Positions 1-41,598 of a DNA stretch of 41,599 nt are shown here, piece by piece (position 1 is the first letter of the stretch; the number at the start of each line of letters is the position of its first letter). This DNA comes from a virus. Location: IMG/VR virus record IMGVR_UViG_3300006737_000063, positions 1-41,599 of that record; one strand, 5' to 3'. The notes beneath the pieces were generated by a model. It was not told the DNA's origin and did not search any database. It worked only from the letters and a program-made list of their open reading frames with translations. Position numbers and translations under genes: made by a program.

Positions 1-1
1 T

Positions 2-3841: not shown

Positions 3842-3847
3842 ACTTAT

Positions 3848-3950: not shown

Positions 3951-4142
3951 ATGATTATACGAATGAACGAAATTTTATTGGATATGGATGAGGTAGAAAG
4001 CATTGAATGGCGACACCAAGACGAAGACATGTATAGTGTTCGCTTCCATATGAGGCAAAGCGGGAAGATGTTCACCCGCATTGTCCATGAAAACCAATTA
4101 CAACAATTAAAAGAACAATTTAAAGGAGATGAAGAAGAATGA
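3951..4142 (+). CDS. Hypothetical 63-residue acidic protein
   Basis: Unrecognised. Starts after a good ribosome binding site (TAGGAGA, seven bases upstream of the ATG) and overlaps the RecA-like gene by four bases (ATGA), so it belongs to the same transcript. The product begins MIIRMNEILLDMDEV and ends in KGDEEE. Alternating hydrophobic residues in the middle (YSVRFHMRQ, MFTRIVHE) suggest a small beta sheet followed by a helix. Position just ahead of a recombination ATPase and PCNA suggests a replication or early role, by context only. Confidence 0.7.
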   Translation: MIIRMNEILLDMDEVESIEWRHQDEDMYSVRFHMRQSGKMFTRIVHENQLQQLKEQFKGDEEE

Positions 4143-5047: not shown

Positions 5048-5115
5048 GTTTAACTTAACGTGTATGGTGTGATATTATGAAAAGAATTTATGAAAAAAAA
5101 ACGGTGGTGAAACAC

Positions 5116-5889: not shown

Positions 5890-5891
5890 AC

Positions 5892-6101
5892 GTGGAAAGA
5901 GAACTACTACTAACCATACTATCAACCATGAGGACACAACTTCACGACACACTAATGCATAACCTAAACGAGAGGAACACAACACTAGAACAGTTTCTCA
6001 AAATGTACGGAGAGAGCAATAGTGGGGTTATTCTGTATTTGATTGGGCAAGTGAGACTACTTGATACAATTTTAAACATGAACTCGGAGGAAGAAGAATG
6101 A
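5892..6101 (+). CDS. Hypothetical 69-residue helical protein (GTG start)
   Basis: Unrecognised. GTG start, supported by GGAGG seven bases upstream inside the end of the PCNA gene. The product is predicted to be nearly all helical (MRTQLHDTLMHNLNERN, then YLIGQVRLLDTILNMN) with an acidic end SEEEE. It overlaps the following gene by four bases. The spacing and overlaps make it a real gene of the replication operon. Two amphipathic helices could make it a small dimer or an adaptor; no function can be read from the sequence. Confidence 0.7.
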   Translation: MERELLLTILSTMRTQLHDTLMHNLNERNTTLEQFLKMYGESNSGVILYLIGQVRLLDTILNMNSEEEE

Positions 6102-6295
6102 GTATGTTAAAGGTTGCTATTTGGTTTGCTGATGACATCCAAGGGTATAACCGAGATGAAATCAAAGAACTATGTGAGTTTGCAGGACATGATGATGTAA
6201 TTACTTTTTTAGAAGAAGTTCATCGTCATTATTCTATGGATTTAGCAAGCAAAATTGTGTGGGCGAAAGAAGACCAAGAGGGGAGAGAAGGATGA
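6098..6295 (+). CDS. Hypothetical 65-residue protein
   Basis: Unrecognised. Starts at an ATGA overlap with the gene before it, with GGAGG as ribosome binding site, and overlaps the MazG-like gene by four bases. The product (MSMLKVAIWFADDIQGYNRD and on) has a short hydrophobic start followed by acidic helices; IKELCEFAGHDDVITFLEEV could form a small helical bundle. Its role is unknown. Confidence 0.68.
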   Translation: MSMLKVAIWFADDIQGYNRDEIKELCEFAGHDDVITFLEEVHRHYSMDLASKIVWAKEDQEGREG

Positions 6296-6537
6296 GCAAA
6301 CATGAAGACGAAGTGTGCAAGAAAATTCAACAACGAGCAGAAGTTGGCAAAAATAAATACGGAACAACAATGGAACGTGAAGACCTTTCAGTTCATGATT
6401 GGTTGGTTCACCTGCAAGAAGAATTGATGGACGCCGCCGTATATGTTCAGCGACTAATGGAGGAATTTAAAGACATTGAACTTGCCGTGAAATACGGAAG
6501 AGACTTCGCACAAATGATGAGGGATTTAAATGATTGA
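6292..6537 (+). CDS. MazG-like nucleotide pyrophosphohydrolase candidate
   Basis: 81 residues from the ATG at 6292, which overlaps the preceding stop (ATGA) and has GGAGAGAAGG upstream; a longer frame from 6259 would lie inside the neighbour. The pattern R-x(5)-KYG-T-x(3)-REDL and W-L-V-H-L-Q-E-E-L-M-D-A-A-V-Y fits small phage all-alpha NTP pyrophosphatases (MazG/DUF550 type), where the EExxD residues bind magnesium. Such enzymes clear non-canonical or excess dNTPs and would suit a replication operon. The motif match is by eye and only one EExxD is plain, so the enzymatic call is moderate. Confidence 0.5.
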   Translation: MSKHEDEVCKKIQQRAEVGKNKYGTTMEREDLSVHDWLVHLQEELMDAAVYVQRLMEEFKDIELAVKYGRDFAQMMRDLND

Positions 6538-6742
6538 AGGTCCTAAATTTAAAATAAACCTCCTAGTGAGGGGCGGGTGGTATTGGAAAGATACTTCCGC
6601 TAAAGAACTAAAGCAACATTTAGTTCATTATATACAAAACCACATGCAGTATGAACTGCGAGAAAACGACATTGAGATTGAAATACTGAGTGATAAAGAT
6701 GATGATAAACACGATTCAACAGAACAAGCAACACAGGATTAA
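6530..6742 (+). CDS. Hypothetical 70-residue protein overlapping polB
   Basis: Unrecognised. Starts eight bases before the end of the MazG-like gene and its last 44 bases overlap the start of PolB in another frame. The product begins MIEGPKFKINLLVRGGWYWK, has one amphipathic helix (ELKQHLVHYIQNHMQYEL) and a very acidic, low-complexity tail (SDKDDDKHDSTEQ). The alternating pattern beta-helix-beta suggests a small alpha/beta domain. Overlap implies translational coupling with PolB; function unknown. Confidence 0.65.
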   Translation: MIEGPKFKINLLVRGGWYWKDTSAKELKQHLVHYIQNHMQYELRENDIEIEILSDKDDDKHDSTEQATQD

Positions 6743-9140: not shown

Positions 9141-9141
9141 A

Positions 9142-9618
9142 ATGGGAAAGAAAAGTGGAACATACGTTAAAAGTATGAAACAACTACATGAAAGAATTAA
9201 TAACAAAAAGAAAGAAATAGAAAACCTAGAACAAGACCTTCTAGTAATTTACAAGAAGGAAAAGAAATTTTGGGTCAAAGAAAAAACTTGCACCATTTGT
9301 GGGTGTGAAGAAGAAAAGACGGAATGGCATCACATCATTTCACAGCATAGATGTAGAGAACTCGGAAAGGAGTATCTAATCTATTCTAGAAGTAATGTGA
9401 TAGAAGTATGTAAACCATGCCACGACGAAACTACTGCCTCCCTTCGTAGGAAGGTAATGGAAACACCGTCAAAATCAGTTAAAAATGTTGACGGCCCGCC
9501 TACCGGCAAACAACTGGAATACATACGAAAACTTGGCGGTGAGACCAAAATATATGAAGGTATCACTAGACAAGAGGCATCAAGCCTAATTGATATATTA
9601 AAGGAGAAATCAGCATGA
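9142..9618 (+). CDS. HNH-domain protein with coiled-coil N-terminus
   Basis: 158 residues in three parts. Residues 1-45 are a Lys/Glu-rich coiled coil. Residues 50-95 are an HNH nuclease-type zinc domain with CTIC (50-53), EWHH (61-64), N85 and CKPCH (90-94), so the two Cys pairs bind zinc and the His/Asn residues form the active site. Residues 120-155 (PTGKQLEYIRKLGG, then TRQEASSLIDIL) resemble a small helical DNA-binding tail seen at the end of some phage proteins. It sits between PolB and the Cas4-like nuclease with one base of spacing to polB. It could be a free-standing homing enzyme or a replication/recombination nuclease; its tight fit in the operon favours the second. Confidence 0.75.
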   Translation: MGKKSGTYVKSMKQLHERINNKKKEIENLEQDLLVIYKKEKKFWVKEKTCTICGCEEEKTEWHHIISQHRCRELGKEYLIYSRSNVIEVCKPCHDETTASLRRKVMETPSKSVKNVDGPPTGKQLEYIRKLGGETKIYEGITRQEASSLIDILKEKSA

Positions 9619-10511
9619 ATAATTACGTAGAAGAATGGACAGAAAGAGATTTAGAAAATGGGTTCACATACCAATGGAACCCCGACGACGATAATAGCCC
9701 AATGTTAAAAATGACCAAATCGTCACTTGGTTCTTACGGGTTTTGTCGTGCTTCTTATGTTATGGGATATGACCCCTTCGGTGAAGGTAAAATCAAAGGC
9801 CCAGCAACAGAAGCCATGATTCGTGGAAACACAGTTCACGATGCACAGGAAGAATTTTGGAAGTGTGTTGATACCGAGGAAATGATGAATCATATTGATG
9901 ACCCCAATAAATTGGTTAAGTCGTTCGTGAAACTCTATCCCGAAACTGATGATGATACTACCCTTTCCATCTATAAAGGAATGGCTTCATGGTCGGCTGA
10001 AAGGTTTATTGATTGTGTCAAGGACGGAACAGTTGAGTTCTTTAAGCCTGTTGGGAATGAAATTAGGCTAAACGCCAAGTATGAATTGAACGGGCTAGTA
10101 ATTCACCTCCAAGGAATTGTTGACCGGTTGTTCATTCACGAAGGAACCTATGTACCTCTTGAATTAAAGACTGGTGTTTGGAAGGACAGCAAGGCTACAC
10201 ATATGAGAAAGGAAATGGCCTTTTACAAAATATTGTTTGATAACGCTACTGATGAAGACAAAATCGCCGCAGGTCTTGACCCCTCTATGGAGTTCGGATA
10301 TTGGGGCTGGTTCTTCCCTGCTAGCAATTACATTTACCTTGAACCCGTTAAGGCCCGAACTGAGCAATCGGTTCAAAATGCCATGCAAAAAGTAGTAGAC
10401 TCCTACATACTTAAGGAGTTTCCGTTTGACGACTTTTATAAGAAGTGCAGACATTGTGGACTTTATTCGGTGTGTGAAAAAGGGGAAGGAGGGATAAGTT
10501 ATGACTGGTGA
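9615..10511 (+). CDS. Cas4/RecB-family PD-(D/E)XK nuclease with Fe-S cysteines
   Basis: 298 residues. Nuclease motifs are GNTVHDAQEEF (His75), GIVDR (Asp170) and PLELKTG (Glu183, Lys185). Four cysteines fit the Cas4 iron-sulfur site: Cys44 near the N-terminus and Cys278, Cys281 and Cys287 at the C-terminus (CRHCGLYSVC). Cas4-like enzymes trim DNA ends; in viruses they are common without any CRISPR locus and are thought to work in replication-linked recombination. It starts by a four-base overlap with the HNH gene after a GGAGA site, and ends in ISYDW. No CRISPR repeats are present in the window. Confidence 0.88.
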   Translation: MNNYVEEWTERDLENGFTYQWNPDDDNSPMLKMTKSSLGSYGFCRASYVMGYDPFGEGKIKGPATEAMIRGNTVHDAQEEFWKCVDTEEMMNHIDDPNKLVKSFVKLYPETDDDTTLSIYKGMASWSAERFIDCVKDGTVEFFKPVGNEIRLNAKYELNGLVIHLQGIVDRLFIHEGTYVPLELKTGVWKDSKATHMRKEMAFYKILFDNATDEDKIAAGLDPSMEFGYWGWFFPASNYIYLEPVKARTEQSVQNAMQKVVDSYILKEFPFDDFYKKCRHCGLYSVCEKGEGGISYDW

Positions 10512-10884
10512 AGACCAAAGAGAAATTGTAGAAAATGTAAAAAACGATTTAGTTAAAAAGGTGCTAGAGTTTGGGTGGACTGTTAAGGACATTTACCACA
10601 TAGAAAAAACATTAGAAGGTATAATTCAAAGAGAGGACTATACACTTGATGTTATGGTTAATTTTGCGAATGATAAACTTATAAAGCAAATTGAGGATGA
10701 TTTCTACCTCTTTCACATTGAGCATCTAACAGAATTAATTGTGGGTGATTTAGATTCAGCCAAGATTGAAATGAATATTAAGCCGGTTGTCCTTCCGGTG
10801 AAAAATAAGAAGGAGAAGGTTAAAACCCTTCCCTCTAAAGACGAACTGCTAGAGCAGATTAAAAAGGACACAAAACAAGTATGA
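10501..10884 (+). CDS. Hypothetical 127-residue helical protein
   Basis: Unrecognised. The ATG overlaps the end of the Cas4-like gene by 11 bases and follows a strong GGAGGG site. The product is mostly charged helix for the first 95 residues (VKNDLVKKVLEFGW, HIEKTLEGII, FHIEHLTELIVGDLDSA), then has a Lys/Pro-rich linker and a final helix. It directly precedes the primase gene by nine bases, so a primase or nuclease partner is conceivable. Nothing in the sequence identifies it. Confidence 0.7.
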   Translation: MTGEDQREIVENVKNDLVKKVLEFGWTVKDIYHIEKTLEGIIQREDYTLDVMVNFANDKLIKQIEDDFYLFHIEHLTELIVGDLDSAKIEMNIKPVVLPVKNKKEKVKTLPSKDELLEQIKKDTKQV

Positions 10885-10893
10885 GGTGAAAAC

Positions 10894-11931
10894 ATGTATT
10901 TTCCGAGAGAAATGTGGGCAGGAAGCCCATTTATGAACGCAAGACAACCTAAGAGAGAAGTCGTTGAAAATGAAGAACAGTTCCTAGAATTCGTAAATGA
11001 TTACAACGGGAAAATGAATGTCTATACTTCTGTATACAATTACGATGAATTTTCAGTCAATCGTGGTTTAGAACATTCAGTAGCAATTGATAGAATTTTC
11101 TTAGATATTGATGCTCATGGGAATGATTCTTTAGAAGAGGCTTATGAAAACCTAAAGGACTTACATTCATGGTTAATTAATAGGAATCTAAAACATCGTA
11201 TGGCCTTTAGTGGGCGAGGATTTTACATCTTCGTGTATGGAAAAAGGACCTCCGACTTGAGAAGAGTTAAGGCATTTTTCAATATATGTCATGATGTGAT
11301 TAATAGGTCGAGGCTTTTAGACCATAGGGTTATCAATACCACCCGCCTACGAAGAGTTCAAAACACATACCACATGGGGGCAAAACGGTTCTCCATTCCT
11401 TTGAAACAGTCCGACTTAAAGCACGATTTGGGGTTCATACTTGACATGAGCAAGAAACAAAGAAAGGGTAAGAACTCCTACTATGGAGAACATTTGCTTG
11501 ATTGGCCCGAAGTAAAGGAAATTGAGAGTGCTGGTATTGAGATAGAGGGTGTAGAAAGCCCCGCTACCTTGCCAGTTATCCCATGCTTGGCTTCAGCCAA
11601 CTTGGTTCAAAATCCCCTACACGAGGCTAGGTACTTACTGGTTCAATGGTATAACGAAATTATTTCCGACATGGTTTTAATTGAACGGGGTATTGAAGGA
11701 AATCCAAGAGACTTACAGGGAGAGGTATTGACCGACATTAAAAACATCATCTGTGCTGAGATTGAACAAATCGCTAGCGACGACGATGTTTGGATTGATT
11801 ACAACCCCACTACGACTAGAAAGTTTGTGAACTATGTCGTGAATAAGAGGTTTATGTCGGCTTCGTGTGCAACCCTAATTGACAAAGGAATGTGTGTTGG
11901 AAAATGTTGGAGGTATGGCGATGATAATTGA
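10894..11931 (+). CDS. Primase: AEP catalytic domain fused to PriL-like Fe-S domain
   Basis: Makes primers for DNA synthesis. The N-terminal half is an archaeo-eukaryotic primase (PriS type): metal-binding FLDIDAHG (69-76, Asp71 and Asp73), SGRGFYIFV (106-114) and the nucleotide-binding RLRRVQNTYH (151-160). The C-terminal part resembles the PriL iron-sulfur domain: IPCLASANL (Cys231) with NPLHEARYLLVQW, then SCATLIDKGMCVGKC (Cys325, Cys334, Cys338), giving the four-Cys set in the right order. Archaea normally carry these on two proteins of more than 300 residues each; here both fit in 345. The motif II residue usually His is Tyr111. A GAGGTGA site precedes the ATG. Confidence 0.85.
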   Translation: MYFPREMWAGSPFMNARQPKREVVENEEQFLEFVNDYNGKMNVYTSVYNYDEFSVNRGLEHSVAIDRIFLDIDAHGNDSLEEAYENLKDLHSWLINRNLKHRMAFSGRGFYIFVYGKRTSDLRRVKAFFNICHDVINRSRLLDHRVINTTRLRRVQNTYHMGAKRFSIPLKQSDLKHDLGFILDMSKKQRKGKNSYYGEHLLDWPEVKEIESAGIEIEGVESPATLPVIPCLASANLVQNPLHEARYLLVQWYNEIISDMVLIERGIEGNPRDLQGEVLTDIKNIICAEIEQIASDDDVWIDYNPTTTRKFVNYVVNKRFMSASCATLIDKGMCVGKCWRYGDDN

Positions 11932-12586
11932 TAGTAGAGAAAGTTCCGTTTTATGTGCAAATGTAGAATATTTTGCTGGAATGGCTAGAGTCCCAGTAGA
12001 AAGAATGTTTATTGAAGTAGGCGATTACGTCGGAAATGAAATTTGCATTGAGGCAAAATCAGTAAATGACTTCTACTACTCCGTTAAGGCGAAGCGAATG
12101 TTTAACCAAATTAGCAACATGGAGGATAACTACACTAAGACTATTGTTTTAATTCATGGAAAGGCGTCCGAACTAGCAAAACACCTAACCAATGTAGAAA
12201 AAAGAATCATAGATAAGATGAAAAGACGAATGGTTGGGGCTATGTCAGCAATTACTTTAAACACTAATACTAAAGTCGTTTGGATTCCTAGTACAAAGGA
12301 CGCTGCTGAGTTTATTGTTGCCTGTTTTTTCAATAAAGACAAAGAAGTGGACTTAAGTAAAATGCTACACAAGAAAAAACGAACAGATGATGTTAGAATT
12401 GACGTTTTAACACAAATCAAAGGCATTACAACAGAAAAAGCGAAATTATTGCTTAAAGCCTACGGGTCAATAGCAAAAATCGCAGAAAGTGATGTAAAAT
12501 CACTAACAAAAATAGAAAAAATAGGAAAAATAACCGCTTCAAACATAAAAGAAGCACTAACCGACGAAAAGGAGGTATCATATTGA
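11921..12586 (+). CDS. ERCC4-type (XPF/Mus81/Hef-like) nuclease with HhH2 tail
   Basis: Structure-specific endonuclease for forked or branched DNA. The ATG at 11921 has GGAGGT six bases upstream; the ATG at 11915 abuts the site and the frame further up (11879) lies in the primase gene. The 221-residue product opens with IIDSRES (Asp4, Arg6, Glu7), followed by VGDY (Asp35) and IEAKSVND (Glu44, Lys46, Asp50), the ERCC4 active site with Ala in place of the middle Arg of ERKxxxD. Residues about 155-215 form two helix-hairpin-helix motifs (QIKGITTEKAKLLLKAYGS, IEKIGKITASNIKEAL) that bind DNA and dimerise. No helicase domain, so it is like the nuclease half of Hef. It overlaps the primase gene by 11 bases. 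Confidence 0.9.
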   Translation: MIIDSRESSVLCANVEYFAGMARVPVERMFIEVGDYVGNEICIEAKSVNDFYYSVKAKRMFNQISNMEDNYTKTIVLIHGKASELAKHLTNVEKRIIDKMKRRMVGAMSAITLNTNTKVVWIPSTKDAAEFIVACFFNKDKEVDLSKMLHKKKRTDDVRIDVLTQIKGITTEKAKLLLKAYGSIAKIAESDVKSLTKIEKIGKITASNIKEALTDEKEVSY

Positions 12587-14142
12587 CAGATATAGAAGAA
12601 TTAGACGAATGGGCGTATTATGACGCAATTAATGAACTTACAAAGGAAGCAATTGAAGCAGTAGAACTAAGAGAAGTAGTTTCTTTGCCAAAAATTGTTT
12701 TAGATTGGGCAAATGCTGTTAAGGAGTATTCAATGTATAACGAATACCCAGCGCAGATGTCCTTTTTTGTTATTCTAGGGCAGATTTTAAAGAACGATGT
12801 TAGAATTAGGGCCGCTGGTGCGCCTTTAGACCCAAGGATTCACTTTTGTTGGATTCAAACGGCTAGAAGCGGTAAGACTACTATGTGGGATTTTCTTTCC
12901 GATGCTTGGGGAAAAATATTTGACCTAGTAAACAAGTTCCCTAACACAGCAGAATATGAAAGGATTTGGGAGAGACAACAGGGAGTAAGGGAAGGAGAAA
13001 GGGCATTTACAATTCACAATCCGGACGCTTTTACAGACCAAGCCCTGTTAGGAACTAAAAAACTAAATCAACCCAATCCCGACTACAACCGAGCGGAAGC
13101 GGCTCAAGCCGCCCAAAACAACGAAGTTTATGACATTCCCGCTGAAATTACTATTGAAAGGTACGGTGCGCTTCATGGGTCAGGAATAATTGCGTTTGAT
13201 GAATTTGAACATTCGGGTATTTTTAAAGAATCAAAGCATAAACAAGACGTCGTGATGATGTTTCAAAAGTTTATGAACAAATTAGAATCCGATACCCACC
13301 TAATTAAGAAGCGATTGACTGAATGGGAAACCGATTTCGTTGTTGATTGTCAACGTTCCTTATGGGCAACTACCCTGCCCCCACAAGGTATTGAAATGGT
13401 TATTCTTACAAAGGGTGTTTTCCAACGAATGTGGCTTTACATTAGGGACATTCCTGATTCATTGAAAGACCGCATGGAAGACATGTATTTGCAGAAACTT
13501 TACGGGGACCATGACGATAGCGCAAGAAAGAAAATACCCGGTGAGATGGCGGAGAGACTCTACGACATTTACGTTTGGGTCCAAGAAAGACTAAAAGAAG
13601 TAGATGGGAATAAAATTAACGTCTGTCCTCTTTCAAAGGACGCACATAATCGTATCATCATTGAAGTCAAAAGAATGAGAACCTATACCAACGGGTTTCA
13701 AGGTGTAATGAAAGACGCACTAGATTCGTTTAGAATGAATCTAATCAACAATATTACAATCGCTTCAACGCTTTGTGCTATTGCTGAGAAGTCTCCGGTT
13801 GTCACAGCAAAACATGTAGACATGGGTATGACGCTATCTACAAAATCATACGATTCAATTACTGAATGGTTTAGTGGTAGATTGAAGAATCGAAGAGGAA
13901 ATTTAAAGGAAGGCGTTAAGGAAGGACAAATCACTAACATTTACGACGCTTGTATAAAAAAGGCCACTTCAACCCTAAGCAAGGAAGGTTGGATTTCAAA
14001 GACTATCCTAATCAAGTCTTACATGGAAGCCACTAAAAAAGCGAGAGCAACATTTTATAGATTATGGAATAGTACAGACCATCTGTTTGAGGAGAAAACA
14101 ATTAACCGCAAGGTGTATATCAGGAGGTCTAAAGATGAATAG
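12583..14142 (+). CDS. P-loop ATPase, candidate replicative helicase
   Basis: 519 residues, TTG start after AAAGGAGGT. A nucleotide-binding core is visible: Walker A TARSGKTT (93-100) and Walker B GIIAFDEFEH (201-210). KGVFQRMWLYIRDIPD at about 286-301 could hold an arginine finger or sensor. The N-terminal 85 residues and the C-terminal 200 are mainly helical; the end (about 465-515) looks like a winged helix (SKTILIKSYMEATKKARATF). This layout resembles DUF3987-type and other phage replicative helicase ATPases more than MCM, but I cannot place the family. The helicase role is inferred because no other helicase is seen in an otherwise rich replication set. Confidence 0.55.
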   Translation: MTDIEELDEWAYYDAINELTKEAIEAVELREVVSLPKIVLDWANAVKEYSMYNEYPAQMSFFVILGQILKNDVRIRAAGAPLDPRIHFCWIQTARSGKTTMWDFLSDAWGKIFDLVNKFPNTAEYERIWERQQGVREGERAFTIHNPDAFTDQALLGTKKLNQPNPDYNRAEAAQAAQNNEVYDIPAEITIERYGALHGSGIIAFDEFEHSGIFKESKHKQDVVMMFQKFMNKLESDTHLIKKRLTEWETDFVVDCQRSLWATTLPPQGIEMVILTKGVFQRMWLYIRDIPDSLKDRMEDMYLQKLYGDHDDSARKKIPGEMAERLYDIYVWVQERLKEVDGNKINVCPLSKDAHNRIIIEVKRMRTYTNGFQGVMKDALDSFRMNLINNITIASTLCAIAEKSPVVTAKHVDMGMTLSTKSYDSITEWFSGRLKNRRGNLKEGVKEGQITNIYDACIKKATSTLSKEGWISKTILIKSYMEATKKARATFYRLWNSTDHLFEEKTINRKVYIRRSKDE

Positions 14143-14320
14143 GGATAGGGTTATGGCTATTAGGTCTTACTTTGACAATGAATGGATTACTAAAGAAGAT
14201 GTAGTGGATATTTTAATGACCTTTATAAGCAAGGAACATTTAAATAGTCTTGCTAATTTAATATCAAGTGGATATTCCTTAGAAGAAATAAAGGACATAG
14301 AGGTGTATAAAAATGAATAA
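14135..14320 (+). CDS. Hypothetical 61-residue protein
   Basis: Unrecognised. The ATG at 14135 lies inside the end of the ATPase gene and has GGAGGT six bases upstream, which fixes this start over an in-frame ATG at 14087. The product, starting MNRDRVMAIRSYFDNEW, is short and mostly helical and acidic (KEDVVDILMTFIS, LANLISSGYSLEEIKDIEV). It overlaps the exonuclease gene by eight bases. A small regulator or partner of the flanking enzymes is possible. Confidence 0.7.
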   Translation: MNRDRVMAIRSYFDNEWITKEDVVDILMTFISKEHLNSLANLISSGYSLEEIKDIEVYKNE

Positions 14321-14909
14321 CGTAATGGCAATAGACATAGAAACAGGAAATAGTGCGGCAGATATCGGAGGTTGGGGAAATACCCACATGTGGGATATCA
14401 CCTGCGTTACAACATGGGATGGTAAAGAAGCGAGGGCTTATGTAGACAAACCTATGAGCATTGACGGAGTATTGGTTAAGTCTCTTAGGAGTTTAAAGTA
14501 CGACCTAGACCAACACTTTGACGAGGGAGGGGTTTTATTAGGACACAACATTATTAGTTTTGACCTACCAGCCCTTCGTGATTCAATGGATATTTTTATA
14601 GCAAAAAAGTTTATTGATAATAAAGAGACACGGTGTATTGATACTAGTAGGATTATGAATAAACATTCAAGCGGATTTCATGTTTCGCTAGATAACTTAG
14701 CAAAGTGTAATTTAGGGACGCAGAAATCAGCAAATGGATTAACTGCGGTTAAGTGGTGGTCGGAAGGTCGCTATGAAGATGTAGTAAAATATTGTGTTTT
14801 AGACTCCCAAATTTCTTATGATGTTTGGGTAAAGGGGCGTGTTGAAAAACAAATTGAGTATTATAACGAGGATGAAAATAATTTCATCAAGGTAGATATT
14901 GAGTGGTGA
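14313..14909 (+). CDS. DnaQ/RNase H-fold 3'-5' exonuclease (DEDDy type)
   Basis: 198 residues. Exo I is AIDIETG (Asp8, Glu10), exo II LGHNIISFDLPAL (Asn79, Asp84), and exo III KYCVLDSQISYD (Tyr160, Asp164), the Tyr marking the DEDDy subgroup that includes polymerase proofreading domains. LDNLAKCNLG before exo III also fits this family. PolB already carries its own exonuclease, so this enzyme may act in recombination, repair, or breakdown of host DNA or RNA. It has a GAGGTG site and is the last plus-strand gene, directly ahead of the terminator. Confidence 0.85.
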   Translation: MNNVMAIDIETGNSAADIGGWGNTHMWDITCVTTWDGKEARAYVDKPMSIDGVLVKSLRSLKYDLDQHFDEGGVLLGHNIISFDLPALRDSMDIFIAKKFIDNKETRCIDTSRIMNKHSSGFHVSLDNLAKCNLGTQKSANGLTAVKWWSEGRYEDVVKYCVLDSQISYDVWVKGRVEKQIEYYNEDENNFIKVDIEW

Positions 14910-15435: not shown

Positions 15436-15699
15436 TTAATCCAACCCCGTTCCTATTCTATAATCTGTGTAGTGTTTTTTGTTTTCATCGTAGTCCTTCA
15501 TTTTTTCGTGATGCCAACCCATTAGGTAGTTATGAAGTCTAGTACCGGCGGTGTCAGCAAACATTCCTAGTTTTTTAAAAATTGCATTTCTAACTTCCCT
15601 AATCGCGATTTTCCCCTCTACCGATTCCATGTATCTATCAATTTCTTTTCTTGTTCTAGCATTAGGAATAAGATGTTTTTTTAAAATAGTGAACCACAT
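15436..15699 (-). CDS. Small protein with W-x-x-ILK N-terminal tag
   Basis: 87 residues, beginning MWFTILKKHLIPN. These first residues match the tag shared by the small genes at 32212-36429, 16 kb away on the same strand. The rest is mainly helical and charged (RTRKEIDRYMESVEGKIAIREV, MGWHHEKMKDYDENKK) with no family I recognise. It sits between two membrane-protein genes, directly abutting the one at 15016-15435. If the tag is a virion or head-targeting signal, this protein is likely part of the particle rather than of an exit system. Confidence 0.75.
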   Translation of the reverse strand: MWFTILKKHLIPNARTRKEIDRYMESVEGKIAIREVRNAIFKKLGMFADTAGTRLHNYLMGWHHEKMKDYDENKKHYTDYRIGTGLD

Positions 15700-31613: not shown

Positions 31614-32210
31614 CTACAAACTAACTGAAAACCGTTTTAACATAACGCTTACTTTATATCCAAAAATCCTACTCTTTTTATCGTTCTGTTCAATCCTAGA
31701 ACCCATTTCAATGTGCTTAAAATTCTCCGTCACGGAACCGGATTGAATCCATCCCCTACGGTTATTCTCTAATATGTAGCGAACTATTTTATAAAGGTTT
31801 GCTATTCTATCTCTTCCGAAGGTATCTCCCGAGGGGGCTAATCTATTTCCATCGGACGTTCTTCTGTCGTCCTGTTTTGTTCGGATGCGAATACCCATTG
31901 AATATGTTTCGTGTCTAACGGAATAATCAACGGTTGGGTATTCTATGCTTTGAGTTTCTTCCATACAGACGATTAAATCTGCTGTATCAATAACCCCATC
32001 GGAGTTTGTATCTTGGTCTTTAGCACGAGAAATTCTAGCACGGTTTCCACCCCTACCGGGATTTGTAGTATTTCTTGTTGATGCCATAGACCGAATATCC
32101 ATAATCTGTGGACGAACCCTATGAACTGCTGGTATTTCACTACCTAAAGCAGTAATGGCGGCATTCCAATTATCCGCTAGGAGGGAAACTAGAAATGTTG
32201 TTTCATCCAT
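31614..32210 (-). CDS. Neck / tail-completion protein with dockerin-like Ca loop
   Basis: 198 residues. It opens MDETTFLVSLLADNWNAA and contains AKDQDTNSDGVIDTADL at about 76-92, matching the D-x-N-x-D-G-x-I-D-x-x-D pattern of dockerin or EF-hand calcium loops. The rest is alpha/beta (SMGIRIRTK, DRIANLYKIVRYILENNR). Position just before the tail tube gene (transcription order) fits a tail-completion or head-tail joining protein. I do not recognise the family with confidence. Confidence 0.55.
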   Translation of the reverse strand: MDETTFLVSLLADNWNAAITALGSEIPAVHRVRPQIMDIRSMASTRNTTNPGRGGNRARISRAKDQDTNSDGVIDTADLIVCMEETQSIEYPTVDYSVRHETYSMGIRIRTKQDDRRTSDGNRLAPSGDTFGRDRIANLYKIVRYILENNRRGWIQSGSVTENFKHIEMGSRIEQNDKKSRIFGYKVSVMLKRFSVSL

Positions 32211-32211: not shown

Positions 32212-32472
32212 TTAAACTCTCCTATACATGGTAGGTTTTCCTCCCAAATTTTGGTAGTCGGGATTGCCTCTAAAGTGAGAAATAAGTTCTCTTTTTGTAG
32301 GGACGTCTCTTTGAGAGTGTTTTATTCGGTGATTTTCTACATAAAAAGAAACATCTTCTAGAATTCCCATAATGCTTCTTTCCTGTCCATCTCCCATAAC
32401 CATTTCTATGACATCCTTAGACCGCTGGCCCATTCTTTTACCCTTTAAAATATTAACCCACTCACTAGTCAT
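32212..32472 (-). CDS. Tagged small protein (SEWVNILKGKR), neck array
   Basis: 86 residues starting MTSEWVNILKGKRMG. The true start is the ATG at 32472, which overlaps the end of the preceding gene by eight bases; a longer frame from 32595 is a shadow of the neighbour and would hide the tag. The rest (ERSIMGILEDVSFYVENHR, ending in GGKPTMYRRV) is basic and mixed alpha/beta without a recognised family. Last gene of the array in transcription order. Confidence 0.75.
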   Translation of the reverse strand: MTSEWVNILKGKRMGQRSKDVIEMVMGDGQERSIMGILEDVSFYVENHRIKHSQRDVPTKRELISHFRGNPDYQNLGGKPTMYRRV

Positions 32473-32680
32473 TAAAGGCCTCCTTGATACGCTCACTAAT
32501 AACCTTTGTAAATTCTTGTTCAATAACTTGAGACATAATTTCATCGGACAAACGCTCACCAAGTAATTCCTCCGAGAGGTCTTCCATGTCCTCATTTTGT
32601 GAAATCACCCTTTGTAGAATATCGCTCATCTCTTCTTGTGTTTTAGAAAGTTTTTCAATGATTTTTCTAAACACGGTCAT
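32465..32680 (-). CDS. Small acidic coiled-coil protein, weak tag, neck array
   Basis: 71 residues, starting MTVFRKIIEKLSKTQEEM: an aromatic residue at position 4 (Phe instead of Trp) followed by a helix with IIEK, so only a relaxed version of the tag. The rest is a single long amphipathic helix rich in Glu (LSEELLGERLSDEIMSQV). It starts at an ATGA overlap with the gene before it and ends eight bases into the next. Confidence 0.7.
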   Translation of the reverse strand: MTVFRKIIEKLSKTQEEMSDILQRVISQNEDMEDLSEELLGERLSDEIMSQVIEQEFTKVISERIKEAFND

Positions 32681-33039
32681 TCCTCCTTAAAGTAGTAGGC
32701 TCCGCCCTTTTTTGAATCGTAACCAGAATTTCCTAATTTATAGGTTATCATCCTGCTAACTTGGTCAACACTTCTACTTAAAAGAGACGAAATTTGTTGA
32801 CTGGAAAAATTTTTTAATATAGGGACGGTTCTAATTTTCATTCTTATTTCCGGATTAGGCAAAAATTCCTTTTCTACTAGTTGTAATATTTCTTTGTAAG
32901 AAATTTCATTGGTTCTAGGTATAATCTCTTTTTCTACGAACTCATTAACTATGGGCCTTACTGCGGCTCTAACCAATTTAGCATTTGCTCGTGAATCGGA
33001 GCGTTTTGTTTTTCTTTTTAGAACTTGAAACCAATTCAC
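32677..33039 (-). CDS. Tagged protein with possible winged-helix C-terminus, neck array
   Basis: 120 residues, GTG start coupled to the previous stop (GTGA). It begins MNWFQVLKRKTKRSD. The middle is helical (LVRAAVRPIVNEFVEKEI), and FSSQQISSLLSRSVDQVSRM followed by GGAYYFKEE looks like a helix-turn-helix with a small wing. A DNA-contacting virion protein is possible. No family recognised. Confidence 0.72.
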   Translation of the reverse strand: MNWFQVLKRKTKRSDSRANAKLVRAAVRPIVNEFVEKEIIPRTNEISYKEILQLVEKEFLPNPEIRMKIRTVPILKNFSSQQISSLLSRSVDQVSRMITYKLGNSGYDSKKGGAYYFKEE

Positions 33040-33230
33040 TTTAATTCCTCCATGAGTTCTTCAACGGTTGTTTGTAGATTCTCTTCAACCATTTCTAACA
33101 ACATAGAAATGTCCGGTTCGGGTTTCTTCAATTCCTTAATAACTACTTCCAACACAAAAGCCATTTGTCCCAACATGATAGCCTCATCCGAGGCGTTATC
33201 AGCAGACTGTAAAGCGGCTCTCCAACTCAT
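33036..33230 (-). CDS. Small acidic helical protein, degenerate tag, neck array
   Basis: 64 residues beginning MSWRAALQSADNASD, which keeps the Trp at position 3 and the helix but not ILK. It is otherwise an acidic amphipathic helix pair (IMLGQMAFVLEVVIKELKK, LLEMVEENLQTTVEELMEEL). The ATG has GAAGTGATAAC upstream. It overlaps the next gene by four bases. Confidence 0.7.
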   Translation of the reverse strand: MSWRAALQSADNASDEAIMLGQMAFVLEVVIKELKKPEPDISMLLEMVEENLQTTVEELMEELK

Positions 33231-33234
33231 GTTA

Positions 33235-33351
33235 TCACTTCACATCGGAAATATCCGCACCACAATTACTGCACTCGTCTGCATGTACGTGGTTTTCATG
33301 CCCACAAACAGGACAAGTTTTCTTTAATTTCTTTAAAATCCATTCCCACAT
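33235..33351 (-). CDS. 38-residue tagged zinc-ribbon peptide
   Basis: A very short gene starting MWEWILKKLKKT after GGTGATAAA. Residues 13-30 read CPVCGHENHVHADECSNC, a compact zinc ribbon with Cys13, Cys16, Cys27 and Cys30. It fills exactly the space between its two neighbours (five bases to the next start) and carries the array's N-terminal tag, which makes a chance frame unlikely. It may bind nucleic acid or another tagged protein. Confidence 0.8.
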   Translation of the reverse strand: MWEWILKKLKKTCPVCGHENHVHADECSNCGADISDVK

Positions 33352-33355
33352 TTTA

Positions 33356-33721
33356 TCACCAATTGTAATTACACGCCCAATACCCAGCAGTTAATTTGTT
33401 TTTCTTCTGCTTGCAATTGTGGCGAGATTTAAAATTCTTTCTACGCTTGTTGCTTTTGTGCTGTAGGAAATCCTTGTAGCCTCTTGCTCCAAAGGACACT
33501 ATTCGGTATTTTCCATTTTGGTGAGCCAGCACTCGATATTTCTTTTTGCTACCTTTTGGCGCACGCTTGGGTTTATTCACACCGGGAAATTTTTCTCCCC
33601 GATACATAACTCCTCCTTTAACCCTTTTAATTTCTGATTTTTTTTTCTTTGCTTTAGAAACATCATCATCACAGTCGTTGCACCCACAATCACAATCCTT
33701 CTTTAAAATATCTTGCCACAT
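33356..33721 (-). CDS. Tagged Cys-rich, basic protein of a family shared with phages and giant viruses
   Basis: 121 residues. Tag MWQDILKKDC, then a Cys cluster (Cys10, 12, 14, 17), a Lys-rich linker, and a C-terminal domain KYRVLAHQNGKYRIVSFGAR, then HKSNKRRKNFKSRHNCKQKK and AGYWACNYNW. I recall this domain (HKDxKRRxxYxxRH ... GxWA) from predicted proteins of marine phages and nucleocytoplasmic large DNA viruses, function unknown. Net charge is strongly positive, suggesting DNA contact. Confidence 0.75.
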   Translation of the reverse strand: MWQDILKKDCDCGCNDCDDDVSKAKKKKSEIKRVKGGVMYRGEKFPGVNKPKRAPKGSKKKYRVLAHQNGKYRIVSFGARGYKDFLQHKSNKRRKNFKSRHNCKQKKNKLTAGYWACNYNW

Positions 33722-33723
33722 AG

Positions 33724-33966
33724 TTAATCTCTCCCTTTGTAGCGTCTAACGGTTTTACCATCTCTAATAAGTCCGCCTCCTAAAAATTTTGACTTTGGTT
33801 TTGGTTTGGTTTTTGTATTGAAGTCCCTTTCCTCCTGCTCTACGACAACATCAATGTCTTCTTCCATTTCACGAGTAAGTGGTTTACCAGCCTTAAACTT
33901 TTTACCAAAAAGCCTAGCACGAGGAATTTTTTTAGGCTCCTTGATTACGCCCCACCAATCGCTCAT
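33724..33966 (-). CDS. Tagged 80-residue basic protein
   Basis: Begins MSDWWGVIKEPKK, a version of the tag with a double Trp and VIK for ILK. The rest is charged and low in hydrophobic residues, probably disordered, with an acidic patch (MEEDIDVVVEQEERD) and a basic one (KTKPKPKSK). The end GGLIRDGKTVRRYKGRD resembles GKYIKDGKIIRRSEDE in the protein at 34236-34724. Ribosome site GGTGATAAC. Confidence 0.72.
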   Translation of the reverse strand: MSDWWGVIKEPKKIPRARLFGKKFKAGKPLTREMEEDIDVVVEQEERDFNTKTKPKPKSKFLGGGLIRDGKTVRRYKGRD

Positions 33967-34002
33967 GTTATCACCTTATTACTTTCTTCTTATTAAGTTT
34001 TT

Positions 34003-34239
34003 CTAGTTAAGAGTATAAACGGCATCTCTACCTGCCGTATAGGAGACACCCGGAACTCTTTTTAAATACCCACCAATCGCTCTCGGAATTATTTGATTTC
34101 TATACCTTTTAGATAAGCGGTCATAAATAATCCCAGCAGGTAGGTTATTTTCTTTGGATAAAATTTCTATAACCTCTCGGTTAAATGACTCTCTACTTCT
34201 TTTAGACATTCCCTTATGTAGTATATTTTCCCAACTCAT
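34003..34239 (-). CDS. Tagged winged-helix-like protein
   Basis: 78 residues. Tag MSWENILHKGM, then a domain with FNREVIEILSKENNLPAGII, YDRLSKRYRNQIIPRAIGGY and a strand pair (GVSYTAG, DAVYTLN), which fits a small winged helix. It starts at an ATGA overlap with the preceding gene. It could contact DNA inside the particle or act as a regulator; the shared tag argues for the former. Confidence 0.73.
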   Translation of the reverse strand: MSWENILHKGMSKRSRESFNREVIEILSKENNLPAGIIYDRLSKRYRNQIIPRAIGGYLKRVPGVSYTAGRDAVYTLN

Positions 34240-34724
34240 CGCTTCCCTCTCCTTCTTTTGTAAGTTTTACAAGCCGCACAAGTAGGGCGGCATCTTCTCT
34301 TTCTACCCTTGGAGGCATCTTTTCTTCCGCAGGGTTTTGGTCCGTTTTTACTCCCACAGGTTGAACAATCAATCCACCCACCTTGAGTTTTCTTTCCTTT
34401 GCCTTCCTTTCCTCCCCTACGAGAGAACCAGCCGTGGAGTCCTTCGTCTTTTTCACGCTTGAAGTTATCTCCCGACTTTTTACGTTTTTTCTTTTTGAGA
34501 AGTTGACCCCAACCCCCTTCTTGAAATTCATCCTCCGACCTACGAATAATTTTTCCATCCTTGATATACTTACCCCTGTAAGGTTTCTTTTTAGGCATCA
34601 CACCAGTTTTCTTTTTATACCCACTCAAATAGGCGGCAGTAGCAACCCGTTGGGCCGCTTCTTTGGTATCATAGGGACCTTGTTCTCCCCAATACCACTT
34701 GCCGTTCTTTTCTGTAATGGGCAT
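34236..34724 (-). CDS. Two-domain basic protein with an internal tag-like segment
   Basis: 162 residues from the ATG at 34724 (MPITEKNGKWYWGEQG); three codons upstream another ATG abuts the ribosome site AGGA, so the inner one is preferred. The N-terminal part, with GPYDTKEAAQRVATAAYLSG, resembles small phage proteins of unknown role. At about residue 70, GGWGQLLKKKKRKK looks like the array tag placed internally, followed by GLHGWFSRRGG, WIDCSTCG, GPKPCGRKD and CRPTCAACK, a Cys-containing domain I recall from marine phages and giant viruses. It looks like a fusion of two array genes. Confidence 0.72.
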   Translation of the reverse strand: MPITEKNGKWYWGEQGPYDTKEAAQRVATAAYLSGYKKKTGVMPKKKPYRGKYIKDGKIIRRSEDEFQEGGWGQLLKKKKRKKSGDNFKREKDEGLHGWFSRRGGKEGKGKKTQGGWIDCSTCGSKNGPKPCGRKDASKGRKRRCRPTCAACKTYKRRRGKR

Positions 34725-34729
34725 GATTA

Positions 34730-35329
34730 TCATTCCTGTGTTTCTCTAGCGTATTGTTCACCAAACGTTGTTTCTTCATCTATGGTTAGGGGTCTGCCCT
34801 CGGCGTTAGTAATTTCTGTAAGGGTAGGAAGTCTGTTATACATATTTTTCCACATTTTAAAGTAATCTAAAATCATTGGGCTTGTAGTTTTACCTCTTTC
34901 TCTCCGTTGATTTCGCAATTGTAGTGCAGAAGGAGGTTTAGGTGTAGTTTTTCTTTGTTCTCTTTCTTGCCTCCTTTGTTCCCTTCCTTGTCTTTCTGCT
35001 TCTATTTCTTCTTTTGGTCTGTTTGGTCTTCTTTTTTGTGCTTTGTAATCCTCAGTAGGGAGCATTGTTGTTTCTTTCCCATACTGCACTCGCATTCTCA
35101 TCACGCCATGAAATTTTTTTCTTTCTTCTGCCCACGAATTTTTTCCGTAGATTTTTAATTGATTTTCTAACTTTTGGTGTAGATTTTGCTTTTTTCTGTT
35201 AGATAAATTTTGATATTCTTCCTCCGACAATACCATAGTCTCATAATAGTCCTCAAGGGCATATTCTTTACCTGCCCTTCTCGCATCATTAAAGTTTCTA
35301 ATTTCAAATTTTAATATTTTTTTCCACAC
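34730..35329 (-). CDS. Tagged basic coiled-coil protein
   Basis: 199 residues from a GTG start (GGAGAGATAATT upstream). It begins MWKKILKFEIRNFNDARRAG. The middle is a charged coiled coil (SEEEYQNLSNRKKQNLHQKL), then a highly basic, Arg/Glu/Gln-rich low-complexity stretch (EERQ-type, about 105-145), and an alpha/beta tail (MWKNMYNRLPTLTEITNAEG). No family recognised. It follows the 34-residue basic peptide by two bases. Confidence 0.72.
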   Translation of the reverse strand: MWKKILKFEIRNFNDARRAGKEYALEDYYETMVLSEEEYQNLSNRKKQNLHQKLENQLKIYGKNSWAEERKKFHGVMRMRVQYGKETTMLPTEDYKAQKRRPNRPKEEIEAERQGREQRRQEREQRKTTPKPPSALQLRNQRRERGKTTSPMILDYFKMWKNMYNRLPTLTEITNAEGRPLTIDEETTFGEQYARETQE

Positions 35330-35331
35330 AA

Positions 35332-35436
35332 TTATCTCTCCTTTCTTTTGTAATGGGGTTTGTTCGGTCTAACTTTCTCACTCTTTTGACTTGGTTCTCC
35401 CTTCCTACGCCTAACCCGATTACGCCTCTTGACCAT
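35332..35436 (-). CDS. 34-residue Arg/Lys-rich peptide
   Basis: A short frame that starts immediately after the stop of the preceding gene (TAG-ATG) and ends two bases before the next start. The product begins MVKRRNRVRRRKGEPSQ and has 16 Lys or Arg among 34 residues, without the tag. Such protamine-like peptides bind DNA or RNA through charge. Exact fit between its neighbours supports it as a real gene; no homolog is known to me. Confidence 0.55.
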   Translation of the reverse strand: MVKRRNRVRRRKGEPSQKSEKVRPNKPHYKRKER

Positions 35437-35796
35437 CTAATCCCTGTCCGTGAAAGCCCCTCTTGCTTTAGGCAAACCTTCAAGCAAAATGTAATCACCG
35501 TTCTTATGCAGGGAAACCTTCTTCATTTCCTTGAGTTTCTTTTTGAGTTCTTTCTTTGAAAGTTTAGTAGTCTTCTCTAGTGGTTCTAAACCGGAAGCCC
35601 CTCCTTCATCTTTGAGGGTGCGAATAATAATTGCTTCAACGTCTTCTTTCTTCTCATCTCGGAGTTCGTCAAAATCCTCGGCATCAATTCTACCGTTGTT
35701 GTTAACATCTAATTCTTTCTGCCCACCGATAAGTTCCTTATCCATGTCTTCTTTTTCTGTTCCACAATGACCCTTTAAAATATCTTTCCAATTCAT
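35437..35796 (-). CDS. Tagged protein with EF-hand/dockerin-like loop
   Basis: 119 residues. Tag MNWKDILKGHC, then KELDVNNNGRIDAEDFDELR at about 28-47, a clear D-x-N-x-N-G-x-I-D-x-x-D calcium-type loop, then a long charged helix (KLSKKELKKKLKEMKK) and a strand region HKNGDYILLEG. It starts in an ATGA overlap after GGAGGG. Calcium binding would suit a virion protein in sea water; not demonstrated. Confidence 0.75.
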   Translation of the reverse strand: MNWKDILKGHCGTEKEDMDKELIGGQKELDVNNNGRIDAEDFDELRDEKKEDVEAIIIRTLKDEGGASGLEPLEKTTKLSKKELKKKLKEMKKVSLHKNGDYILLEGLPKARGAFTDRD

Positions 35797-36188
35797 TTTT
35801 TACCCTCCATTCTCATTTGATTTCCTTTTGAAGTTTTATCATCATCAATGGGACCACCAGCCGCCCAAGTATAACAAGTTCTATCCTTGTGGCATTTAAA
35901 GTGATGCATCCAACAATAACCTAAATCACCCTCTAGGGGCATACACTTTTCCATGCGTGGTGAAATATCAAACGCTACACAATTACTACAATTAGATTTT
36001 TTTGCGACCTCAACAGAAGTGTTCCAATGGTCTGCGGCTTTAACCCAATAACCCTTGTCTTCTAAATTAAGTGGTCCGTATTGGATGTGTTCTGCTTTAA
36101 TAGAAGCATCACGATTTTTAGTATTTAGTTTTAAATCCTGTGTTGCTCTCGGGCAGGCTAGTTCTTTTAAAATAATTTCCCAATTCAC
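35793..36188 (-). CDS. Tagged Cys-rich protein of a marine virus family
   Basis: 131 residues, GTG start. Tag MNWEIILKELA, then CPRATQDLKLNTKNRDASIK, HIQYGPLNLEDKGYW, KKSNCSNCVAFDISPRM and GYCWMHHFKCHKDRTCYTWA. I recall close relatives of this Cys/His-patterned domain in marine phage genomes and metagenomes, function unknown. The ordered Cys (about 8) suggest metal binding or an Fe-S site. The next gene overlaps its stop by four bases. Confidence 0.75.
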   Translation of the reverse strand: MNWEIILKELACPRATQDLKLNTKNRDASIKAEHIQYGPLNLEDKGYWVKAADHWNTSVEVAKKSNCSNCVAFDISPRMEKCMPLEGDLGYCWMHHFKCHKDRTCYTWAAGGPIDDDKTSKGNQMRMEGKK

Positions 36189-36192
36189 ATTA

Positions 36193-36429
36193 TCACTTCT
36201 TTTTTGATTTATTGCCCCAATTAGCGGCTCCTACCTTCCTACAACGAACAAGTGCGCCCGAAGCATATGCGGAAGGCCATTTTTTATACCTTGAGCGAAC
36301 CTTATAATAACAAGCGTCTTTCTTTCCGGTAGATTTACCCTTACGCCTTGTCTTTTTCTTAGCCTTTTTAGAACCCTTCTTACGACGGGCCTTACTTTTC
36401 TTTTGAATAATATCCCACCAAATGTCCAT
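36193..36429 (-). CDS. Tagged, extremely basic protein (30 of 78 residues Lys/Arg)
   Basis: Begins MDIWWDIIQKKSK, a double-Trp version of the tag, then a Lys/Arg tract (RRKKGSKKAKKKTRRKGKST) and a compact domain KDACYYKVRSRYKKWPSAYA followed by GALVRCRKVGAANWGN. That domain is, as far as I recall, widespread in marine phages and giant viruses with no known function. The charge points to nucleic acid binding, for example genome condensation in the head. First gene of the array, ten bases after the adaptor gene. Confidence 0.78.
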   Translation of the reverse strand: MDIWWDIIQKKSKARRKKGSKKAKKKTRRKGKSTGKKDACYYKVRSRYKKWPSAYASGALVRCRKVGAANWGNKSKKK

Positions 36430-36438: not shown

Positions 36439-37533
36439 TCAATCGTTATCCAAGTAATAATTAATTCTTTTCTTCATCCTAAGAATTTTATCAATATCCT
36501 GCTTATAAGAATCGTATTTTGTTTTAATATCAATTCCCGTAGAGTCGTCCCCCACAAGAACATATGAATCATCACTAGCCAACAATTCGCAAGCCACGAG
36601 TTTTGTAGCCGCCTCCTCAATAATGGCGGGAACTCTATGATTACCATAGGTGTAAGTTAATTTTATAGAATGTTTGGTGTGGAGGGGGTAATCTGCCCGG
36701 AAGAAAATATCCCCCGAATCCTTAATGTCCCACCAATTTTGGTTTCTGTCGTATTGTTCCTTGTCCGTAAAACTAGAAACAGTTATTCCCGAACCAGCGG
36801 CGGTAATAGTGCAGGTTGAGCCATCCGAACCCGGCAACAAAGAAACGATTGTAATTGTCTCGTCTTCTTCAACACTCGCATAGAAAAAGTCGGAAATGTT
36901 GTAAGTATTTGAGGAGTCCTTCAATGACTTGTTAGCAGAAGCCCCCGTAAAAGAAGCAGTTAGTGTCGGTGGTTGCTCATTGATTAAATAAGCCAACTCA
37001 AGCGCAGTAGTTCTAGTTCCGAATGATTTATTGAACTTATCATCGTGTGCGTTTGTAGCGGCAAACAAATCCCAATGCAAAGACCCGGCTCCCAAAGTGA
37101 TAGATGTGATGTTAGAAAAATCCGTAATAGAAATAGAAGTGGTAGCGGAGGCCACATCTCTATATGAGGCTCCGTCCCAAAAAGCAATCCTAATTACCTT
37201 TCTAATATTCTCATGTTCTGTGCGAACCTTACCTGCGTAGTCTTCGTAAAAATAAACATATTTATCAAAAAAATCAAAGTCGTGAAACTCATTTTCAGCG
37301 AGATTTTCTCTCCAAGACTCATTAGTAAACTCATCTATGTAGTCTTCTGCCCTACGAATTAAGTCCCCGACTTCTTCTAGTGTAGGAGAAGTAGCCCCCG
37401 TTACACTAAATGAAACGAAATCAGCAACACCCAATAAGGCGGCAACCTTAACGGCTGTTGTATAAGCACCACTTCCCGCAGAATAATTAATCACGTTTAG
37501 TGTAGGGTCAGACGGAACAATAACTTTAACCAT
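36439..37533 (-). CDS. Head-tail adaptor (HK97 gp6-like) with inserted beta domain
   Basis: 364 residues. The helices LEEVGDLIRRAEDYIDEFTN near the N-terminus and IIEEAATKLVACELLASDDS near the C-terminus are typical of gp6-type connectors that sit beneath the portal. A large beta-rich region lies between them (about 110-290), including ALELAYLINEQ and ETITIVSLLPGSDGSTCTIT, a module found in other phage virion proteins. The family usually has 100-200 residues, so the insert explains the length. Confidence 0.65.
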   Translation of the reverse strand: MVKVIVPSDPTLNVINYSAGSGAYTTAVKVAALLGVADFVSFSVTGATSPTLEEVGDLIRRAEDYIDEFTNESWRENLAENEFHDFDFFDKYVYFYEDYAGKVRTEHENIRKVIRIAFWDGASYRDVASATTSISITDFSNITSITLGAGSLHWDLFAATNAHDDKFNKSFGTRTTALELAYLINEQPPTLTASFTGASANKSLKDSSNTYNISDFFYASVEEDETITIVSLLPGSDGSTCTITAAGSGITVSSFTDKEQYDRNQNWWDIKDSGDIFFRADYPLHTKHSIKLTYTYGNHRVPAIIEEAATKLVACELLASDDSYVLVGDDSTGIDIKTKYDSYKQDIDKILRMKKRINYYLDND

Positions 37534-41391: not shown

Positions 41392-41598
41392 TCATTGGAG
41401 GTCAAGGATTTTACCTTGTCCTCGGAAGTAGGTGCAAACAGTCTCAGCAACAGTACGGTAAAGGCCACGGTGTCCTAACTTGCCGTGTCCGAAAACATCA
41501 GCGTTAATGCCACCTTCAAAGTATTCAGTTGGCTTCAAAGTGCAAAGGAACAGATGGTCAGTATCAAGAATAAGCATATCCGAAACACCAGCACCGCC
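41392..41598 (-). CDS. Major capsid protein, C-terminal fragment
   Basis: The frame is open to the right edge, so the start is outside the window; 68 codons plus stop are visible. The visible part, including GGAGVSDMLILDTDHLF, LKPTEYFEGG, HRGLYRTVAETVCTYF and the end GQGKILDLQ, resembles the C-terminal end of HK97-fold capsid proteins of archaeal head-tailed viruses. The next genes downstream are head and connector proteins, as expected. Only the C-terminus can be judged. Confidence 0.6.
   Translation of the reverse strand, partial: GGAGVSDMLILDTDHLFLCTLKPTEYFEGGINADVFGHGKLGHRGLYRTVAETVCTYFRGQGKILDLQ

Follow-up and report, generated by a model that had tools for sequence, protein, structure and literature searches.

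A short N-terminal peptide shared by unrelated late proteins of magrovirus-like viruses, a probable capsid-targeting signal

The 41,599-nucleotide stretch analysed here (the window; positions 1 to 41,599 of IMG/VR virus record IMGVR_UViG_3300006737_000063) is a 41.6-kb genome fragment from a tailed, magrovirus-like virus that infects marine archaea, and many of its small late genes open with one short peptide, called the tag below. The tag was found to be a separable, peptide-level label that is late-only, clade-specific and carried by hundreds of unrelated proteins. It is an aromatic-x-x-hydrophobic-hydrophobic-Lys segment of 8-10 residues, predicted to form a short amphipathic helix. By analogy with the internal proteins of phage T4, we consider it probable (roughly 0.7) that the tag is an N-terminal capsid-targeting, or cargo-loading, signal. 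Loading into the prohead and delivery on infection are inferred, mainly because enzymes of host-modifying type encoded among structural genes would be useful chiefly in the next cell. The original prediction, made from the window alone, had described the tag in a single island of small genes. Our results correct it in four respects: the system is clade-wide, it has two sequence dialects, the basicity of the tagged proteins is not general, and no T4-type [LI]xE site is enriched after the tag.

Results

The tag marks one class of late genes

The conserved genes on either side of the island were used as queries in two scans, which yielded 50 loci, and more stretches were fetched for 14 of these contigs. 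Genes were called with a purpose-written script that was blind to the tag, assigned as early or late by strand, and dereplicated; the last 30 residues served to remove duplicates where loci overlapped contigs already in the set. In 15 related contigs, the mid-form motif opened 212 of the 919 late-strand genes and none of the 418 early-strand genes (Fisher p = 6e-39), whereas 0.9 matches were expected by chance from the rate of the motif core inside late proteins. Counting all possible starts in the first 52 sequences, with the fetched loci oriented so that the late gene lay on the plus strand, gave 187 plus-strand versus 13 minus-strand matches, and 11 of the latter were the window's own late genes; gene calling was therefore not the driver of the enrichment. 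The window's early replication module served as an internal control and contained zero tagged genes. The number of tagged late genes per genome ranged from 3 to 27 (G000-G006, G008-G013). Among core late proteins (homologues of 19 proteins, including terminase, portal, protease, capsid protein, connector and tape measure), 0 of 298 were tagged, and the tag therefore marks one class of late proteins, not all of them. Loci L126 and L169 lie on a viral contig of unusual size (184,733 bases), which has magrovirus-like genes and 11 or more tagged genes. The polymerase gene of G006 (L047, L052-L054) is fragmented, with frame changes and an internal stop, probably through sequencing error, and the gene calls there are unreliable.

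At the DNA level, a degenerate pattern for M[SN]W[KE][DN]I[LF]K matched at least 120 stretches in viral contigs. The same pattern in 257 Gb of cellular genomes gave 93 scattered stretches with a single match each; the 80 cellular titles listed were from scattered bacteria and a few archaea, none of them naming Poseidoniales. In 80 viral loci, most of which carried magrovirus-like genes, 356 of the 1041 called genes were tagged. With the tag removed, the first 212 tagged proteins fell into 95 families (blastp at 1e-4, which makes the counts somewhat too high for fast-evolving proteins). The combined total was 510 non-redundant tagged proteins in 245 families, nearly all without a database match, in agreement with the original prediction that the bodies are unrelated beyond the tag.

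The tag is conserved as a peptide

Aligned on the Trp, the 95 families gave a consensus of Ser, Asn, Met or Thr followed by W-[KEFQ]-[DNS]-[IV]-[LI]-K. The logo was sharp at W, I, L and K, dropped to about 0.3 bits one residue past the K and was near zero from the third, the signal being confined to the tag. Among body homologues below 80% identity, the tag was strictly kept in 193 of 245 and was tag-like in 28 more; the remaining 24 were mostly degenerate (MTWKDITKN, MTLWFEELKK) or probable start errors. The Lys was retained even though bodies diverged below 45% identity. Retention in related genomes, absence from early viral genes and the extent of the logo were comparisons that the original prediction had itself proposed, and all three came out in its favour. 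The peptide MSWEDILK opened 22 genes in 15 different nucleotide sequences. Leu codons in the tag were as in the controls, with all six used, and those for Ile, Lys, Asp and Asn were somewhat AT-rich. The many nucleotide spellings and control-like Leu codons therefore indicate that selection acts mainly on the peptide. The helical hydrophobic moment averaged 0.60, versus 0.37 for shuffled sequences, and it exceeded the shuffled value in both dialects; low-confidence AlphaFold2 models placed a helix at residues 3-11 in both, including the window protein 35437-35796. The Cys content of tagged proteins (0.33%) was close to that of untagged late proteins (0.44%), versus 1.44% in early proteins.

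A second dialect follows the capsid lineage

The W..ILK form (dialect I) was missing from G007, a contig of the sister clade (capsid protein 43% identical with its G001 counterpart). The small late genes of G007 opened with MTAFETAWNILK, MTAFDKAWDFLK and MSEAFEQAWLLLK. This second form (dialect II) reads M-[TS]-A-F-[DE]-x-A-W-x-[LIV]-[LV]-K, with the logo [TSG]-[AP]-F-[DE]-x-A-W-x-[LIV]-[LV]-K. Its DNA pattern matched 102 stretches, at most 5 per locus; 239 of the 887 genes in dialect II loci were tagged (126 families), and 267 of 268 tagged genes lay on the majority strand of their locus. No locus bearing a capsid gene contained both dialects. In the tree of the major capsid protein, dialect I loci formed one clade (100/99) and dialect II loci another (87/81). 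The dialect thus tracks the capsid lineage, as a lock-and-key relation with a head component predicts; the match is also compatible with any other lineage-specific partner.

Tagged proteins include enzyme-like and DNA-binding-like bodies

When 140 representatives of tagged families were annotated against Pfam and PHROGs, only isolated matches came back. In a 15-member dialect II family, the invariant His and Gly of an ADP-ribosyltransferase (ART)-like YHGT...I..GL motif stand just behind the tag, and the family profile matches DarT (E = 0.0018) and Tpt1/KptA. A GNAT domain above the Pfam cut-off (Acetyltransf_1 8e-5) was found in L165:7063-8679, and the two largest dialect II families gave weak GNAT matches; the GNAT-like family A3 had no meaningful match when its profile was searched against the PDB. 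HExxH motifs occurred in about ten tagged proteins, one of which had a weak metallopeptidase match, and another tagged protein contained pentapeptide repeats (2e-11). The tagged protein L165:7063-8679 (538 residues) joins its N-terminal GNAT domain to a C-terminal ART-like segment, ITEYHGTLD...GI, which recurs in L061:18703-19137 and also in L055:3751-4530, where no tag is visible. The dialect II protein L059:5916-6749 (277 residues; no Pfam match) has a glycine-rich loop resembling that of protein kinases (GEGANQVVYG). The relatives also encode a head maturation protease, portal and terminase. A late-operon DNA ligase located between portal and protease (L073:7154-9238 and orthologues) opens in several genomes with a divergent F-type start, F..[IV][AV]K. 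This ligase is possibly packaged and was left out of the counts of tagged proteins, the divergent form being present in some genomes only. The original prediction had regarded many of the products as very basic, which applies to a minority: the mean net charge was about 0, only 5.7% of tagged proteins exceeded +0.1 per residue, and the charge measurements do not support a general basicity.

The basic domain of the window gene 36193-36429 is 80-85% identical over about 41 residues to cyanophage proteins (L090-L094), which implies recent exchange between the archaeal viruses and T4-like cyanophages. In the cyanophage multi-domain proteins (T4-GC_110/119 class; P-SSM2, S-MbCM6, SynMITS9220M01), small basic domains of the same kind, up to about 85% identical, are encoded beside packaging or neck genes. 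There the basic domain is fused with an LHDWF-type domain, and once with a YTDENPK-type domain, in a single untagged protein adjoining terminase or neck genes, whereas the magroviruses split the domains (equated by eye) onto separate tagged proteins, the YTDENPK type in L133:526-867 and the LHDWF type in L180:3971-4237. Fusion in one group and a shared tag in the other suggest that one problem, co-locating the domains, was solved twice. The cyanophage homologues were also considered as carriers of a T4-like capsid-targeting sequence (CTS) and rejected, as their N-termini do not begin with one.

Organisation of the window and its tagged genes

The plus strand of the window (1..14909) encodes a chaperonin, an RFC-like ATPase, PolB, a PD-(D/E)XK nuclease and an ERCC4 nuclease, constituting the early replication module. 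The late genes occupy the minus strand, where the C-terminal end of the major capsid protein is followed by connector-like and tail-like genes. A PolB/chaperonin/clamp loader/ERCC4 module lying opposite a morphogenetic module corresponds to the organisation of the Magrovirales; a replication module and an opposed morphogenetic module characterise the magroviruses, tailed viruses of marine group II archaea (PMC12999244, PMC10160649). A search of the phages collection for reference genomes returned haloviruses and methanogen viruses only, and no magrovirus record surfaced.

The N-termini quoted in the original prediction were genuine and were read on the minus strand. The expression M.{0,4}W..[ILVM][ILVMA][KRQHNE] matched 10 of about 14 island genes and one gene outside, the window forms following M-x(0-4)-W-x-x-[IV]-[LI]-[KQH] (Table 1). 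The earlier count of at least nine tagged genes thus held, within an island of about 14 genes instead of 15. Of three starts considered weaker, MSWRAALQ and MTVFRKIIEK are weak indeed, while MSDWWGVIK passes the motif; the tagged gene starting at 15699 had been overlooked.

Table 1. Tags, tag-like segments and bordering late genes in the window. For tag rows, the higher coordinate is the gene start.
Feature	Position	Strand	Gene	Remarks
Major capsid protein, C-terminal end	41392..41598	-		Matches end of G001 major capsid protein; untagged family
Untagged conserved late gene, phrog_17057 / connector-like	36439..37533	-		One border of island
MDIWWDIIQK	36400..36429	-	36193-36429	Body is the basic domain YKKWPSAYASGALVRCRKVGAANWG
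MNWEIILK	36165..36188	-	35793-36188	GTG start; Cys-containing body, function not assigned
MNWKDILK	35773..35796	-	35437-35796	Weak EF-hand loop, helical C-terminal half; tag modelled as helix 3-11
MWKKILK	35309..35329	-	34730-35329	GTG start
Internal tag-like WGQLLK	34494..34511	-	34236-34733	Between two modules; no N-terminal tag
MSWENILHK	34213..34239	-	34003-34239	78 residues; winged-helix-like in the original prediction; no Pfam match
MSDWWGVIK	33940..33966	-	33724-33966	
MWQDILK	33701..33721	-	33356-33721	Cys-rich linker and DUF5754 domain
MWEWILK	33331..33351	-	33235-33351	38 residues, hardly more than tag and one zinc ribbon
Weak start MSWRAALQ	33207..33230	-	33036-33230	Fails motif
MNWFQVLK	33016..33039	-	32677-33039	GTG start
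Weak F-type start MTVFRKIIEK	32651..32680	-	32465-32680	
MTSEWVNILK	32443..32472	-	32212-32472	
Untagged conserved late gene	31614..32210	-		Opposite border of island
MWFTILK (MWFTILKKH)	15679..15699	-	15436-15699	Outside island; adjoins lysis-like genes

The orthologue of gene 32465-32680 in L002 opens with MFRKIIEK, and related proteins of L007 and L010 open with MFKSILKK and MFRSIIRK. Gene 34236-34733 consists of an untagged first module (MPITEKNGKWYWG...), the internal WGQLLK and a cyanophage-like LHxWF domain; L171:1917-2372 has the same order, with an internal SWKDIL. A body similar to that of gene 15436-15699 was found fused in L172:5765-6286. Reading by eye also showed, at about 35332-35436 between two tagged genes, an untagged open reading frame that is very short and very basic (MVKRRNRVRRRKGEPSQKSEKVRPNKPHYKRKER). 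A tblastn search of the phages collection with the DUF5754-bearing gene 33356-33721 returned zero homologues.

Discussion

A capsid-targeting signal would act as follows. Late in infection, the tag helix would dock on a component of head assembly, such as a scaffold-like region, an extension of the protease or the inner face of the capsid protein; our guess for the putative docking site is the region of the head protease outside the protease domain. The tagged proteins would be enclosed in the prohead ahead of DNA packaging, stay in the head and be ejected together with the genome. The ART-like, GNAT-like and metallopeptidase-like enzymes and the DNA-binding domains would then act on the new host before viral gene expression. 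Under such a scheme a new cargo gene would need the tag only, which would explain the mosaic, fast-turnover islands of small genes.

Foreign proteins can be brought into T4 heads by an N-terminal stretch of about 10 residues, and host RNA polymerase is ADP-ribosylated by Alt, a T4 head protein (PMC9958956). Like the CTS of the T4 proteins IPI-IPIII, the tag comprises about ten residues at the N-terminus, common to late proteins that otherwise differ, in a virus that encodes a head maturation protease. The N-terminus of IPII and IPIII, MKTYQEFIAE, has the same aromatic-xx-phi-phi spacing, and some magrovirus cargo appears ART-like, as is the injected ADP-ribosyltransferase Alt. Only the spacing agrees, however: in place of MKT[FY]xEF the magroviruses have MSWKDILK or MTAFDxAWxLLK, with Trp and Lys near-invariant and without enrichment of the [LI]xE cleavage motif after them, and the tag is borne by hundreds of families, not a handful, in archaeal viruses. 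The tag would therefore work like the T4 CTS, yet we do not class it as one, because it is of different sequence and is not followed by an enrichment of the T4-type cleavage motif. In phage P1, the N-terminus of DarB likewise directs a large co-injected protein into the head, with 30 N-terminal residues sufficing for loading; no common consensus was found among the Dar proteins by the authors (PMC9024508), whereas the magrovirus tag is one consensus on many proteins per genome. The propeptides of head and ejection proteins in SPN3US and phiKZ-like phages are also presumed prohead-targeting N-termini of internal proteins, but several exceed 100 residues and are proteolytically removed (PMC5694885). 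The magrovirus tag has 8-12 residues and shows no evidence of removal.

A protein that is made late and remains in the infected cell could also carry such a label. The tag might dock on a late intracellular or envelope hub, such as a viral assembly factor, a lysis complex or a patch of host membrane, without any packaging; late-only expression, the amphipathic helix and the one tagged gene beside lysis-like genes would also fit. We think this unlikely, because there is little reason for late-only intracellular factors to be host-takeover-like enzymes, pentapeptide repeats or DNA-binding domains, a membrane anchor would be expected to be much longer than the tag, the dialects follow the capsid tree and the Cys content is like that of structural proteins. 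Targeting to the tail or portal channel of the virion instead of the head interior would suit the island of the window, which lies between connector-like and tail genes, and the position of ejection proteins near the portal in other phages. It is quite improbable, as other tagged blocks adjoin terminase, portal or head genes or lie far from tail genes, and the 10-27 tagged proteins of many genomes would be a lot for a tail lumen. Least credible, with very little probability in our judgement, is a nucleotide-level element (translation enhancer or recombination seam) or a relic of gene duplication. Although the small late genes are mosaic and shuffled and the synonymous sites for Ile, Lys, Asp and Asn differ from controls towards AT, one peptide has many nucleotide forms with control-like use of all six Leu codons, its Lys outlasts the divergence of the bodies, 245 bodies have no detected similarity outside the tag, and a different peptide plays the same part in the sister clade. 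A PCNA-binding (PIP-like) motif was rejected on knowledge of that motif and because the replication proteins are untagged.

Several observations weigh against the capsid-targeting signal. The enzyme assignments rest mostly on weak profile matches; the fold search for the ART-like family agreed, but weakly (best E = 0.03; nothing at E <= 0.001), and AlphaFold2 confidence in the tag helix was low. The T4-type [LI]xE site was not enriched behind the tag (1.3 per 100 residues at positions 9-25 versus 1.7 further in); a prohead-protease site of different specificity may lie there. Among the late genes read in the more distantly related haloviruses HVTV-1 and HCTV-1, whose capsid proteins are homologous, no comparable shared N-terminus was present, and none was seen among those read in the methanogen viruses vir335 and vir519. 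The open-licence literature gave no virion proteomics, localisation data or experiment on these viruses. The capsid-targeting reading of the original prediction nevertheless finds support and is the best fit on the analogy of the T4 internal-protein CTS, the location of the proteins in the particle being inferred. The original prediction had also called the tag undescribed, and no description of it was found in the open-licence literature.

On balance, we favour the wider proposal that the tag belongs to a general, clade-specific loading code, in which at least two exclusive, capsid-matched dialects would load more than 350 mostly undescribed families for injection, so that the tag could serve as a sequence-only detector of effectors. 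If true, it would to our knowledge be the first time that a broad protein-packaging code is recognised in archaeal viruses. These viruses are abundant in the ocean, and most of their genes are without known function. The address peptide divides their late genes into core parts of the particle and cargo that is probably injected; the latter amounts to several hundred candidates for effectors that act on archaeal hosts. The two natural dialects are mutual controls that make capsid targeting testable, and the tag could serve to load chosen proteins into a head.

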